From assembly GCA_015494845.1 (NCBI GenBank), contig WGAL01000262.1, positions 1-10,735 on the forward strand: a stretch of DNA of 10,735 nucleotides, given 5' to 3'. Position 1 is the stretch's first letter. Each line of letters starts with the position of its first letter. This DNA is from Melioribacteraceae bacterium (GTDB lineage Bacteria > Bacteroidota > Ignavibacteria > Ignavibacteriales > Melioribacteraceae). Positions 5,026-8,781 of the stretch are shown here, in pieces. A program made the translations under genes and the position numbers. A model generated the notes under the pieces. The model did not search any database. It saw only the letters and a list, made by a program, of their open reading frames with translations, and was not told the origin of the DNA.

Positions 5026-7107
5026 ATGAGTAGGGTAAGTCAAAGATTTGCTGATTTAAATATAACAACAAAGATTCGCGGCGGTTTTCTGTTAATTGCA
5101 ATTATCTCAACCTTGATTGCAATTAACGATTATTTCCAATTTAAAAATTTTGAGACAACGATAAATACAATTTTTACCGACTTCGTTGAGCCATCAGGAA
5201 CAATTTACTCACTATTGGAAGACATTCAAAATATCGAGAAAAAAACACTCGAATTGGCAAATCCTCAATTCGCTGAAAGAAAAGATTTAATACTTAACGA
5301 TATAAACAGTTTGCGAAAAGCGATAAATTCCAAGTTTGCAGAAATTGAGAAAAAATTCGAAGCCACACAATATTCCGAAACTGTAAAGAACCTTAAAGAA
5401 AAATGGCTTTCATACAGTAATAATGTTATTGACGGAATAATAAGCGCCGTAAATATGGGACTATATGATATGGCCGGAGAAATTTCAACATCTCTCGGTG
5501 TAACTGAAGGGAATAAACTTTCAGACCAATTTAGAGTATTTGATAAACAACTTAAAATATCAGCCACAAAATTAAGAGAGAATACAAATAACCTTGTTTC
5601 CTACGCAGTTACTGTTTTATTCATTGGAATGGGCTTAGGCGCGTTTATTTTCTTATTTGCATTTTTTGTTCTCGGTCCGTCAATAACAAAACCGCTAATA
5701 CGTCTGAAAAATATTATTACGGAATACGCTATCGGCAAATTCGATAAATCTCTTAATGTTAACCAGAAAGATGAAATAGGAGAACTTGCCGATGCAATGC
5801 GTAAATTACGCGCCGCGCAGGAAGAGAAAATTCGAGCTGCAACTGATATTGCGAACGGTAAATTTACGAAAGTAAAACCGGCTTCGGAATATGACGAACT
5901 GGCTATTGCATTTAACAGACAAGTGGAAATAATAAGCGACATAATTACCGAAATTGAACATATTTCAAAAAAGAATACAGAAGAAGGTGACTTATTTGTA
6001 AGAATTCAATACGAAAAATTCTCCGGTGAATGGAAAAAACTTGCCGAATCTATTAATAAAATGCTCGATATCGTAATCGAACCTATTGAAGAAGCAAGCT
6101 CAATTCTTGCAAAAATGGGCAATGGAGATTTTACAGATAGAGTTCGCGGCGAGTATAAAGGATTTTACAAAAAATTGAAAGACGACGTAAACCACGTTGC
6201 AGAATCAATGAACAACGCCATTTTCAACGTTATAGAAACAATCAACAAATTAGCCGATTCGGCGAATGAAATTCTGCAAAAAACAAGTGAAATGGCGGCA
6301 GGGGCAAATGAGCAAAACGAACAATCTTCCGAAGTTGCAAGCGCAATAGAGGAAATGACAAAAACAATCGTAAATAACTCGCAAAACGTTGTAATGATTG
6401 AAAAGCAAAGTCGCGCTGCAAGTGAAAAAGCAACAGAGGGAGGCGAAGTAGTAAATAAAACAGTGGAAGGCATAGACAGGATTGCCGATATTGTAATAGG
6501 TACTGCTTCAACAATGCGTGAATTAGGAACAAGCAGCGAACGAATTAATGAAGTTGTTGAAGTTATTAACGAAATTGCCGATCAAACAAACTTGCTTGCT
6601 CTTAATGCTGCAATTGAAGCCGCTCGCGCAGGCGAGCACGGAAGAGGATTTGCCGTAGTTGCCGATGAAGTAAGAAAACTTGCCGAAAGAACCCAACACG
6701 CTACAAAAGAAATTGCCGAAATGATTGCCGAAATTCAGACGAAAACAAGAGACGCGATTGTTGCTATTAATTCAAGCGCCGATGAGGTGGAAAAAGATAA
6801 AGGACTTGCTCAAAATGCAAAACAGGCTCTTGAAGAAATAATTAACAATGCAAATGAAATTTCCGAATTAATTTCTCAACTTGCAGCTGCTTTGGAAGAA
6901 GAATCAAGAACGAGCGAAGAAATAAGTAAAAGCATCGAGGCAATCAGCTATGTTGCGGAAAACACTGCGGCAAATACCGGATATATTACAAATACCGCGG
7001 AAATTATGTACGATAACACTGCCCGCTTACAAGAATTAGTAAAACAATTTAAGATTTCATCCTCCTCCCTACCTGAAAATGTTCCACAACATTTATTGAC
7101 AAATTAA
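5026..7107 (+). CDS. Methyl-accepting chemotaxis protein with a poly-HAMP array
   Basis: The 693-residue transducer has TM1 at about 20-34, a mostly helical periplasmic region (35-190, 4-helix-bundle-like) and TM2 at about 191-217. A canonical HAMP domain follows (218-266, ending in [13 protein letters not shown]). Three further HAMP-like units can be read before the signalling hairpin: about 267-303, 304-352 (EEGDLFVRI, then [12 protein letters not shown]) and 351-400 ([16 protein letters not shown]). The hairpin tip, [19 protein letters not shown] onward (515-555), is the highly conserved CheA/CheW-binding region. The arms are about 19-20 heptads each by eye, compatible with a 40H-type receptor. 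EE pairs in the arms are candidate methylation sites. No CheR-binding pentapeptide is present at the C-terminus. The periplasmic ligand is unknown. The ATG follows GAAGG with 5 nt spacing. The gene is followed by a strong terminator. No che genes are in the window. Confidence 0.95.
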
Positions 7108-7130: not shown

Positions 7131-7162
7131 AAAAGGCGAATAAATTTCTTTATTCGCCTTTT
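7131..7162. terminator. Bidirectional terminator between the MCP gene and trpB
   Basis: The arms at 7131-7144 and 7149-7162 are perfectly complementary over 14 bp (core GGCGAATAAA/TTTATTCGCC) around a TTTC loop. The A/T-flanked stem reads into six or more Ts on the minus strand and into CTTTCTTTC-like sequence on the plus strand. It therefore serves trpB strongly and the MCP gene plausibly. It starts 23 nt past the MCP stop and ends 10 nt from the trpB stop. Confidence 0.9.
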
Positions 7163-7172
7163 CTTTCTTCAA

Positions 7173-8534
7173 TTACTGAATATCCGGCAAATCCGCCAAA
7201 TAGTGCAATATGGTTTCTTCCGGCAATTGGTAATCTTCAAGTTTATTGTTAATGTAAGATTCGTATGCGCCCAAATCGAGGAAGCCGTGCCCTGAAAGGT
7301 TAAACAAAATCGTTTTCGCTTCGCCGGTTTCTTTACACTTCAACGCTTCCGAAATTGCGCCTTTTATTGCGTGCGCGCTTTCCGGTGCCGGCAAAATTCC
7401 TTCCGCTTTGAGGAAATCCCTCGCCGCATCAAATACTTCGATTTGGTGGAAGCTCTGAGCTTCAATTACTTTTTCGTCGTATAGTTTAGAAACGGTCGGC
7501 GCCATTCCGTGGTATCTCAAGCCGCCTGCGTGAATTGAAGGCGGAACAAAAGAGTGCCCGAGCGTAAACATCTTAATTAACGGCGTGTAACCGGCGACGT
7601 CGCCCAAATCATATAAATATTTGCCTTTGGTTAAAGTAGGACAAGACGCTGGTTCTATTGCGATTACGCGCAAATCTTTTTTATCTCCTCTGAGTTTATC
7701 ATAAATAAACGGGAAACTCAGTCCTGCAAAATTGCTTCCGCCTCCGGCGCTTGCGATAATAATATCCGGATAATCGCCAACCTTCTCCAATTGCTTTTTC
7801 GCTTCTTGTCCGATAATTGTTTGGTGCAACATTACGTGATTTAGAACGCTTCCTAACGAATAATTTGTTTCTCTGTCTTGAACCGCAAGCTCAATCGCTT
7901 CGCTAATTGCAATTCCGAGAGAACCAGGAGAATCCGGTTCTTGTTCGAGAATCGCCCTTCCCGATTGCGTAAGATTTGAAGGACTCGGAACAACTTCCGC
8001 TCCGTGCATTTGCATCAACGTTTTGCGATACGGTTTTTGGTGAAAACTAACTTTTACCATAAACACTTGTAATTTCAATCCAAAATGTTGTGTCGCAATG
8101 GAAAGCGCACTTCCCCACTGTCCTGCTCCGGTTTCCGTTGTTATTCTTTTTATTCCTGCACGTTTGTTGTAATACGCCTGCGCAATCGCCGTATTTGTTT
8201 TATGGCTCCCGGCAGGATTTACGCCTTCGTATTTATAATAAATTTTTGCAGGCGTTCCGAGCAATTCTTCAAGTCTGTAAGCACGATAAAGCGGCGTCGG
8301 GCGGCTCAACGAATAAATTTCAAGAATTTCTTCCGGTATGTCGATAAATCTTTGCGGACTCATCTCCTGCTCGATTAATTCCATCGGAAAAATAGCCAAA
8401 AGGTCTTCCGGCGAAACCGGTTCTTTTGTTTGCGGATTTAACGGCGGTTGCAACGGCGAAGGTAAATCCGGCAAAATATTATAATATTGTCTCGGCATTT
8501 CTTTGGTCGAAAGATGAATTACATTTTCTCGCAT
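7173..8534 (-). CDS. trpB: TrpB2-type tryptophan synthase beta-like enzyme (PLP-dependent)
   Basis: The 453 residues match the long TrpB2 (TrpB-like) group rather than the shorter TrpB1 that partners TrpA. The N-terminal extension rich in proline (about 20-45) and SRPTPLYRA (77-85) are typical of it. The PLP lysine is K112 in [11 protein letters not shown], the catalytic glutamate is E134 in ETGAGQWG, the phosphate-binding loop is GGGSN (264-268), and the serine near the pyridine nitrogen is in SGHG (414-417). All key residues are present, so an active enzyme is expected. Its likely reaction is beta-replacement of L-serine with indole to give L-tryptophan in the cytosol. No trpA or other trp gene is in the window, so the indole source is unclear. 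The ATG follows AAGGAG with 7 nt spacing. The gene is monocistronic, bounded by a terminator and by an attenuator whose leader peptide has four Trp codons. Confidence 0.95.
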
Positions 8535-8589
8535 TTTATAACTCCTTATTTTGTTAATGAATATTATTCAATCTTTAATTTTTACAAAT

Positions 8590-8616
8590 AAAAAAGCCGC
8601 AAATAAATGCGGCTTT
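8590..8616 (-). terminator. Second terminator hairpin of the trp leader
   Basis: On the minus strand AAAGCCGCA (8616-8608) pairs perfectly with TGCGGCTTT (8601-8593) around a 6-nt loop and runs into six Ts (8595-8590). It lies 55 nt upstream of the trpB start, inside the same leader. It would block trpB constitutively unless opened. Its 5' arm is complementary to the 3' arm of the first terminator, which offers a way to open it. Confidence 0.85.
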
Positions 8617-8622
8617 AAAATG

Positions 8623-8657
8623 AAAAAGCCGCGAACAGTCTCCGACTATCCGCGGCT
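8623..8657 (-). terminator. First (attenuator) terminator hairpin of the trp leader
   Basis: On the minus strand AGCCGCG (8657-8651) pairs with CGCGGCT (8633-8627). An internal AGTC/GACT helix (8647-8644 with 8640-8637) closes on a 3-nt loop, and five Ts follow (8627-8623). The internal helix and the base of the outer helix overlap the stretch that pairs with segment 2, so terminator and antiterminator exclude each other. It probably also ends transcripts arriving from the upstream sensor-kinase gene. Confidence 0.85.
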
Positions 8658-8673
8658 CAAAATTTATGTAAGC

Positions 8674-8745
8674 TTAGGATAGCGGAATAAAATTATTCCA
8701 CCACCACCAAGTCCCGTTTACATTATTTAAATTTTCAATCTTCAT
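8674..8745 (-). CDS. trpL: trp leader peptide with four consecutive Trp codons
   Basis: This is a 23-codon open frame starting with ATG (8745-8743) and ending with TAA (8676-8674). It begins MKIENLNNVNGT, continues with WWWW encoded by four TGG codons in a row (8709-8698), and ends NNFIPLS. An in-frame TGA two codons upstream of the ATG rules out a longer product. The peptide is not expected to have a function of its own; its translation would sense charged tRNA-Trp for the downstream trpB2. There is no strong ribosome site: only GAAG lies immediately before the ATG. A candidate promoter would start transcription at or next to the ATG, so the leader may be translated as a leaderless message. 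Trp is the rarest amino acid in most proteins, so four in a row in a 23-residue frame directly ahead of a Trp-biosynthetic gene is very unlikely by chance. Confidence 0.9.
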   Translation of the reverse strand: MKIENLNNVNGTWWWWNNFIPLS

Positions 8746-8749
8746 ACTT

Positions 8750-8781
8750 CAATGATAATAAAGTTTTTTCTAATCACAAAA
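8750..8781 (-). promoter_or_regulatory. Candidate promoter of the trpL-trpB2 transcript
   Basis: On the minus strand TATCATTG (8757-8750) matches TAnnTTTG at five of six fixed positions, and TTTTG (8781-8777) lies 19 nt upstream, the Bacteroidota spacing. Read as a sigma70-like site, the same region gives TTGTGA, 16 nt, TATCAT. Both readings place the start near 8745, at the leader ATG. The -33 box overlaps the last codons and stop of the upstream sensor gene. Confidence 0.45.

Follow-up and report, generated by a model that had tools for sequence, protein, structure and literature searches.

In the E. coli trp leader (trpL) a short peptide carries tandem Trp codons, its stop codon lies beside segment 2 of the RNA, and the transcript can form helices 1:2, 2:3 and 3:4 and contains a U-tract. 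The stretch of DNA analysed here (10,735 nt, hereafter the window) resembles E. coli trpL and the Rfam family RF00513 (Trp_leader) in having a tandem-Trp peptide, a stop beside segment 2, three helices and a U-tract, whereas it departs from the enterobacterial trp attenuator in preceding a lone trpB2, in its probably leaderless ORF, in a possible second gate and in its origin within the Ignavibacteria. The RF00513 model scored 18.6 bits (E 7.6) against a gathering threshold of 41, and the trpB motif RF04312 scored 26.5 bits (8699-8617) and 27.4 bits (7197-7124) against a threshold of 59. Each of the 15 Rfam matches in the window up to E 10 fell below its own gathering threshold, none was adopted, and no T-box was among them.

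Other described systems share parts of this organisation. In the accessible portion of PMC7298713, the trpL leader RNA of Sinorhizobium meliloti (peTrpL/rnTrpL) begins at the ATG of the leader ORF, and roles in trans are reported for both the peptide and the RNA; the start at the leader ATG is shared with the prediction for the window, but this Trp attenuator controls trpE(G) in an alphaproteobacterium. The available part of PMC1262725 deals with trp attenuators of Corynebacterium and Streptomyces, among them that of C. diphtheriae trpB2A, a predicted classical attenuator before a gene named 'trpB2'; this parallel is drawn by gene name alone, the C. diphtheriae gene lies in an operon with trpA in a different phylum, and no second gate is described in that part of the source, unlike the possible one in the window. 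The Bacillus subtilis vmlR leader, as presented in the accessible part of PMC9226507, is similar to the relay proposed below, in that a stalled-ribosome signal is followed by an anti-antiterminator, an antiterminator, a terminator and then a hairpin that sequesters the Shine-Dalgarno (SD) sequence. It differs from the window in sensing antibiotics, in having its SD hairpin as a separate stem-loop (SL-4), and in gene and phylum.

The initial annotation had placed a 23-codon minus-strand frame with four consecutive TGG codons ahead of trpB2, together with a 1:2 hairpin over the Trp codons, a 2:3 antiterminator of about 11 pairs and a 3:4 terminator with a U-tract. All of these elements were recovered (Table 1), the antiterminator being larger than first described, and two features that had gone unmentioned, a promoter-like site and a second terminator-like hairpin, were added. 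The suggested FCB lineage also held, since the nearest named record by TrpB2 is from Melioribacteraceae (Ignavibacteria, FCB group; 81% identical).

Table 1. Features of the trpB2 leader region in the window.
Feature	Positions	Strand	Remarks
Promoter-like site TTGTGA-N16-TATCAT	8752..8779	-	9/12 consensus matches
Leader peptide ORF	8674..8745	-	23 codons + stop TAA 8676-8674; MKIENLNNVNGTWWWWNNFIPLS; probably leaderless
Four tandem Trp codons (TGG)	8698..8709	-	predicted stall site
1:2 protector hairpin, including the Trp codons	8678..8705	-	core 12 pairs, 8705-8694 with 8689-8678
2:3 antiterminator	8641..8686	-	15 pairs, -18.0 kcal/mol; 8686-8669 with 8659-8641
Terminator 1 (3:4), predicted	8622..8658	-	stem 8658-8626, 15 pairs, -24.3 kcal/mol, + U-tract
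Alternative 4:5 hairpin	8609..8632	-	GCGGCTTT/AAAGCCGC; -13.3 vs -13.8 kcal/mol for 5:6; p = 0.030
Terminator 2 (5:6), predicted	8589..8616	-	stem 8616-8593, -13.8 kcal/mol, + U-tract
Shine-Dalgarno AGGAG of trpB2	8542..8546	-
trpB2, TrpB-like PLP enzyme (TIGR01415/NF009057)	7173..8534	-	673.7 and 732.9 bits, above both cut-offs
Terminator-like hairpin after trpB2	7131..7162	-	scan reported plus strand; almost symmetrical, with T-rich flanks

The gene downstream of the leader, trpB2, belongs to Trp metabolism. The TIGR01415 score of its product lies above the curated cut-off of 518.85 bits, and the TrpB1 model TIGR00263 gave 161.2 bits, below its cut-off of 392.45; the nearest solved structures are 6hul_B, 4qys_B and 6hte_B. 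No other trp gene was recognised in the window, and no trpA in genome G000 (78% complete). Behind trpB2 there is no close neighbour on the same strand, and because a further terminator-like hairpin lies 3′ of it, the gene looks like a single-gene unit; lone trpB2 genes outside operons are termed TrpB2_o in the accessible part of PMC1854888. On the upstream side, a hybrid sensor kinase gene ends at 8774, leaving 28 nt to the leader ATG. A long plus-strand ORF (5026-7107), chemoreceptor-like by eye, converges on trpB2 and has no visible link to the switch.

We folded the window leader both as a whole and as a growing chain. For the 161-nt RNA the folding energy is -64.4 kcal/mol (z = -8.2; none of 200 shuffles was as good), and the energy of the 2:3 duplex is better than that of shuffles (p = 0.013). 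In the growing chain, with the ribosome assumed to cover 13 nt counted from the first base of the A-site codon, 1:2 formed with P = 1.00 when no ribosome was present; 2:3 formed with P = 1.00 when a ribosome stood at the Trp codons and segment 4 was not yet made; and neither 1:2 nor 2:3 formed when the ribosome stood at the stop codon. The energy model thus gave the three states expected. A ribosome at the Trp codons frees segment 2 and one at the stop covers it, a geometry that fits the enterobacterial placement of stop and Trp codons which the initial annotation had pointed out. Antiterminator and terminator are mutually exclusive, and an intrinsic terminator between the leader ORF and the gene is predicted from sequence and covariation. 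Once terminator 1 was fully transcribed, equilibrium favoured 3:4 despite a stalled ribosome, so that the switch would depend on timing.

To place this leader among its relatives, we read the regions upstream of trpB2 across the class. TrpB2 was found in 122 of 391 class genomes (124 matches), and 119 of the 124 upstreams were read, those left out being G362 and G292 (contig ends), G356, G181 and the second fragment of G281. Sorted by hand, the 119 comprised 44 with a Trp-run leader (set A), 10 with a different short Trp leader (type B) and 65 with none recognised, two of which are truncated at contig ends (G053, 78 nt; G275, 115 nt). G141, which starts with GTG, was added to set A by hand, W-containing ORFs near trpB2 in G129, G124 and G325 were judged spurious, and the last nine upstreams read contributed one set-A leader (G264, outside the structure statistics) and one type B leader (G337). 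A fixed detector applied to the first 110 upstreams found 39 leaders, compared with none in 1100 shuffles and none on 110 reverse strands, while missing four set-A leaders (G096, G208, G246 and G141); in addition, an ATG-started short ORF with WWW appeared in none of 200 dinucleotide shuffles of the window. These shuffles rule out a chance Trp run. Among the 42 set-A peptides with an ATG-type start, WW is present in 39 and WWW in 37.

Set-A leaders were most frequent in the window's own family, f1 (18 of 24 upstreams), and in f3 (4/4), f5 (11/17) and f14 (5/10), with smaller shares in f24 (1/1), f20 (1/3) and f19 (1/12). Family f2 combined set-A leaders (3 of 18) with seven of type B, and all three f13 upstreams had a type B leader. 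No set-A leader was seen in f10 (0/13), f18 (0/6), f21 (0/2), f22 (0/2), f27 (0/3) or f29 (0/1). Even within f1, 6 of 24 upstreams had no recognised Trp leader; the TrpB2 proteins of these genomes (G058, G066, G334, G358, G277 and G340) are 60-64% identical to that of the window, and G058, G066 and G358 have a leader at trpE. The same leader as in the window occurs in the named records L002 (Melioribacteraceae; probably the same genome as G263), L003 (Chlorobiota) and L004 (Bacteroidetes). When a model of the leader was run against 382 class genomes, it gave 27 strong matches (E<1e-8), 26 of which were its own training set at trpB2; the single new one was a WWWW..PLS leader at a contig end (G361), and no strong match lay ahead of another gene. 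Weak matches (E about 1e-6 to 1e-2) in G230 and G379 lie ahead of trpE, and inspection of the weak matches L218-L220 revealed no convincing leader.

Covariation was assessed in 27 leaders of the same stem type, with 500 shuffles per helix. The proportion of paired cells was 93.7% for 2:3, 95.9% for 3:4 and 86.3% for 1:2, and the cells changed on both sides numbered 14 (shuffle mean 2.9), 12 (4.9) and 25 (9.3), respectively. For all three helices, none of the 500 shuffles reached the observed number of paired cells, of cells changed on both sides, or the covariation score. Further pair types were less clear, being reached by 480 (2:3), 104 (3:4) and 80 (1:2) of the 500 shuffles, and for 1:2 as many pairs changed on both sides were seen in 97 of 500 shuffles, while one slid control had more (6 vs 5). 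The best sign is three-way: column 86, in segment 3, varies together with the base it meets in the antiterminator and with the one it meets in the terminator. Of the 12 leaders with A at this position, all 12 have U in segment 2 and 9 have U in segment 4; of the 15 with G, 10 have C in segment 2 and 13 have C in segment 4. Across the wider set, the energy of the 2:3 duplex was better than that of shuffles (p<=0.05) in 39 of 42 leaders, including 12 of 14 from f5 and f14, which have a wholly different stem (GGTGG..CCACC type) with the same logic. The terminator limits of G096 were set by hand, and G013 was tested alone, outside the stem-type comparison and the 42-leader duplex and anti-SD statistics.

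The position of the promoter-like sites suggests how these leaders are translated. Of 43 leaders, 40 had a -10 box that could be scored, and in 34 of the 43 it ends 5-11 nt upstream of the chosen start codon; 31 of the 40 also matched TTGACA in at least 5 of 6 positions at spacing 17. Transcription usually starts about 7 nt after the -10 box, which would leave a 5′ UTR of 0-4 nt. Because the box lies so close to the start of the ORF, the leader mRNA is probably leaderless, or nearly so. In the window the -10 hexamer ends 6 nt from the leader ATG and the predicted start is at ~8745; its site is weaker than is typical of the relatives (TTGTGA, spacing 16), and the promoter scan is weak on its own, with 28 such sites in the window vs 24.5 expected.

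The ORF, its conservation, the covariation, the mutually exclusive helices and the position of the promoter-like site were all computed; beyond these we infer stalling, Trp-dependent read-through, leaderless initiation, the relay described below and the role of the enzyme. The leader is very probably a transcription attenuator of the ribosome-mediated kind, responding to charged tRNA-Trp and controlling trpB2, and membership in this mechanistic class is well supported by sequence. Conservation of the tandem-Trp frame, compensatory changes in the helices of relatives and the three folding states all speak for the Trp attenuator that the initial annotation had proposed; with the first two, the proposal survives the comparison of orthologous leaders that the annotation had named as able to refute it. 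Transcription would start at or within a few nucleotides of the leader AUG. When Trp-tRNA is short, the ribosome would stall on the UGG run, leaving segment 2 free to capture segment 3; terminator 1 would then be blocked and RNA polymerase would read on into trpB2. The freed segment 4 may in turn capture segment 5, so that a second gate, which would be terminator 2 in the window and an SD hairpin in some relatives, stays open. With plentiful Trp, the ribosome would reach the stop and cover segment 2, 3:4 would terminate transcription, and 5:6 could form too. If the leader is not translated, 1:2 would hold segment 2 and 3:4 would form.

The second gate leads us to propose, tentatively and at slightly less than an even chance, a two-stage relay attenuator: a single leader-peptide decision would set two serial gates, the strand displaced from terminator 1 opening the second, and the second gate would be swapped among lineages (second terminator, SD hairpin, both, or none) with the key between segments 4 and 5 kept in most. 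The arrangement would be class-wide and would control a possible salvage enzyme in genomes without Trp synthesis. Segment 4 is complementary to a downstream segment 5 at p<=0.05 in 28 of 42 leaders where about 2 would be expected, a count of related leaders and so not a basis for a combined probability. By group, this applied to 8 of the 11 two-terminator leaders (including the window), all 10 leaders in the SD group, whose stem type is the same, 8 of 14 in f5 and f14, none of the four T1-only leaders, and G096 and G141 but not G069. In the growing chain of the two-terminator group, 4:5 had P = 1.00 in all 11 leaders as long as segment 6 was missing and kept a majority in 7 of 11 once it appeared (0.75 in the window). 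Equilibrium folding failed as support for the relay in the window, where P(4:5) in the full read-through RNA was 0.04, and growing-chain folding alone favours 4:5 there. The pairing data from relatives support the relay, which in the window itself is only plausible.

In the SD group the candidate second gate would act on translation. An anti-SD duplex better than shuffles was found in 14 of 42 leaders, namely every SD-group leader (10; -10.9 to -17.1 kcal/mol), G141, G246, G174 and G371, the last with a duplex that does not overlap segment 5; it was significant in only 3 of 14 f5 and f14 leaders and not in the window (p = 0.106). With segment 4 locked, 9 of the 10 minimum-energy folds of the SD group had segment 5 paired to the SD. 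Predicted exposure of the SD core was 0.04-0.46 with segment 4 free vs 0.02-0.47 with it locked, being higher in 7 of 10, by little, and lower in 3. Because exposure rises inconsistently when segment 4 is freed, we lowered our estimate for the relay from an even chance to its present level.

A simpler account is that terminator 1 is the sole switch, terminator 2 a leaky backup copy and the 4:5 pairing of the window a by-product of duplication; we regard it as a serious contender whose probability approaches, without reaching, one half. The two terminators share a stem core, 5:6 is favoured at equilibrium in the full read-through RNA of most of the 11 two-terminator leaders and in 4 of them wins immediately on synthesis of segment 6, 3 of the 11 have a 4:5 duplex that does not beat shuffles at p 0.05, and G230, G153, G379 and G241 manage with T1 only and no significant segment 5. 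Duplication of a terminator accounts less readily for the 10 leaders in which segment 5 faces the SD, with no second terminator (5) or a weak one (5), since there 4:5 is significant at p<=0.017 in 10 of 10 and has P(4:5) of 0.99-1.00 when segment 4 is free; the same holds for the 4:5 complementarity in 8 of 14 leaders of f5 and f14, where the stem letters are altogether different. G013 bears on the same question: its hairpin 1 lacks a U-tract, its hairpin 2 has one, and 4:5 is significant (p = 0.004; 2:3 p = 0.098), yet 5:6 wins at full length. This leader can be read as a natural experiment in which hairpin 2 is the only predicted terminator and 4:5 the visible route for the signal.

Two further explanations would dispense with codon starvation. 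In one, the peptide would sense free tryptophan inside the ribosome, as in TnaC-like arrest, rather than uncharged tRNA-Trp. A Trp-rich peptide and the ten relatives with type B leaders, short ORFs that end in WPWRR*, RNWRGWHR* or WWP.. and have no recognised U-tract terminator, would suit such a sensor, but the Trp codons lie 15 nt before the CTATCC of segment 2 with the stop adjoining, the geometry of codon starvation, and an arrest peptide would need conserved residues, whereas the peptide around the Trp run varies between families. We consider arrest of this kind highly improbable. It is harder still to credit that the hairpins do no more than end transcription of the sensor gene upstream, the Trp run being a coincidence: that gene does end close to the leader ATG and both hairpins resemble ordinary terminators, but Trp codons and covarying helices recur ahead of trpB2 in several families, none of the shuffled upstreams gives a leader, and the leaders have their own promoter-like site.

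Returning to the Trp attenuator, control of a lone trpB2 was upheld, but not the implication that the device is peculiar to one orphan gene. Every f1 trpE upstream read had a Trp leader and terminator (24/24; 20 + 4), and several other families of the phylum have Trp leaders of their own at trpE, so that a switch confined to trpB2 was rejected. In a phylum survey of 40 trpE regions, hand-chosen from the listed matches, a leader was present in 24 (two weak: L290 and L296), with 10 of 17 in the window's own class and 14 of 23 outside it, the latter from 12 of 18 families. This survey left out low-scoring TrpE families (f33, f36, f38, f41, f48 and others); f37, the most sampled family, had no trpE leader in 2 of 2. 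On the trpE upstreams L221-L240 and L271-L310 the detector found 44 of 60, compared with 4 of 600 shuffles and none of 60 reverse strands.

No trpA, trpB1 or trpE above the family cut-offs was found in the window's genus, represented by G000 (78% complete), G009 (100%) and G263 (96%); the matches below cut-off there are TrpB2 itself and other enzymes, which for trpE are probably of the MenF/PabB kind. The same check covered 13 leader-bearing f1 genomes, five others lying outside the draw, and divided them into 6 without trpA, trpB1 and trpE and 7 with all three. The most likely reaction of TrpB2 is the synthesis of Trp from indole and serine, and because the window's genus has no trpA, trpB1 or trpE matches, the enzyme may serve indole salvage. 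Indole salvage is reported for Thermococcus TrpB1/TrpB2 (cited in PMC11085991, accessible in part).

As far as our searches reach, a Trp attenuator for this gene and lineage is new; literature searches, whose reach excluded most subscription papers, found no earlier report of Trp attenuation in Ignavibacteria. If correct, our reading would extend leader-peptide Trp attenuation to Ignavibacteria and, judging by the trpE survey, to some other families within the wider Bacteroidota group. It would also mean that such attenuation acts on a lone trpB2, a counter-example to the argument, made in the available part of PMC2395257, that attenuation is superfluous for detached trp genes. The interchangeable second gate would offer a natural series, with two-terminator, SD-hairpin and T1-only leaders and G013 with the second terminator only, suited to testing how one ribosome stall drives transcription and translation control together.

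Individual leaders vary around this scheme. Type B leaders, which were found in G119, G309, G346, G306, G237, G385 and G337 (f2) and in G051, G021 and G060 (f13), are perhaps Rho-dependent or translational. In L083 (G332) the Trp run is broken (NNWRQWQN) and the hairpins are kept. To the eye, the leader of L097 (G379), MKFKNINIANNWWWRSFSLPS, is similar to the Agrobacterium peptide MNIVSKNIANWWWSSFLRP given in the accessible part of PMC7298713.
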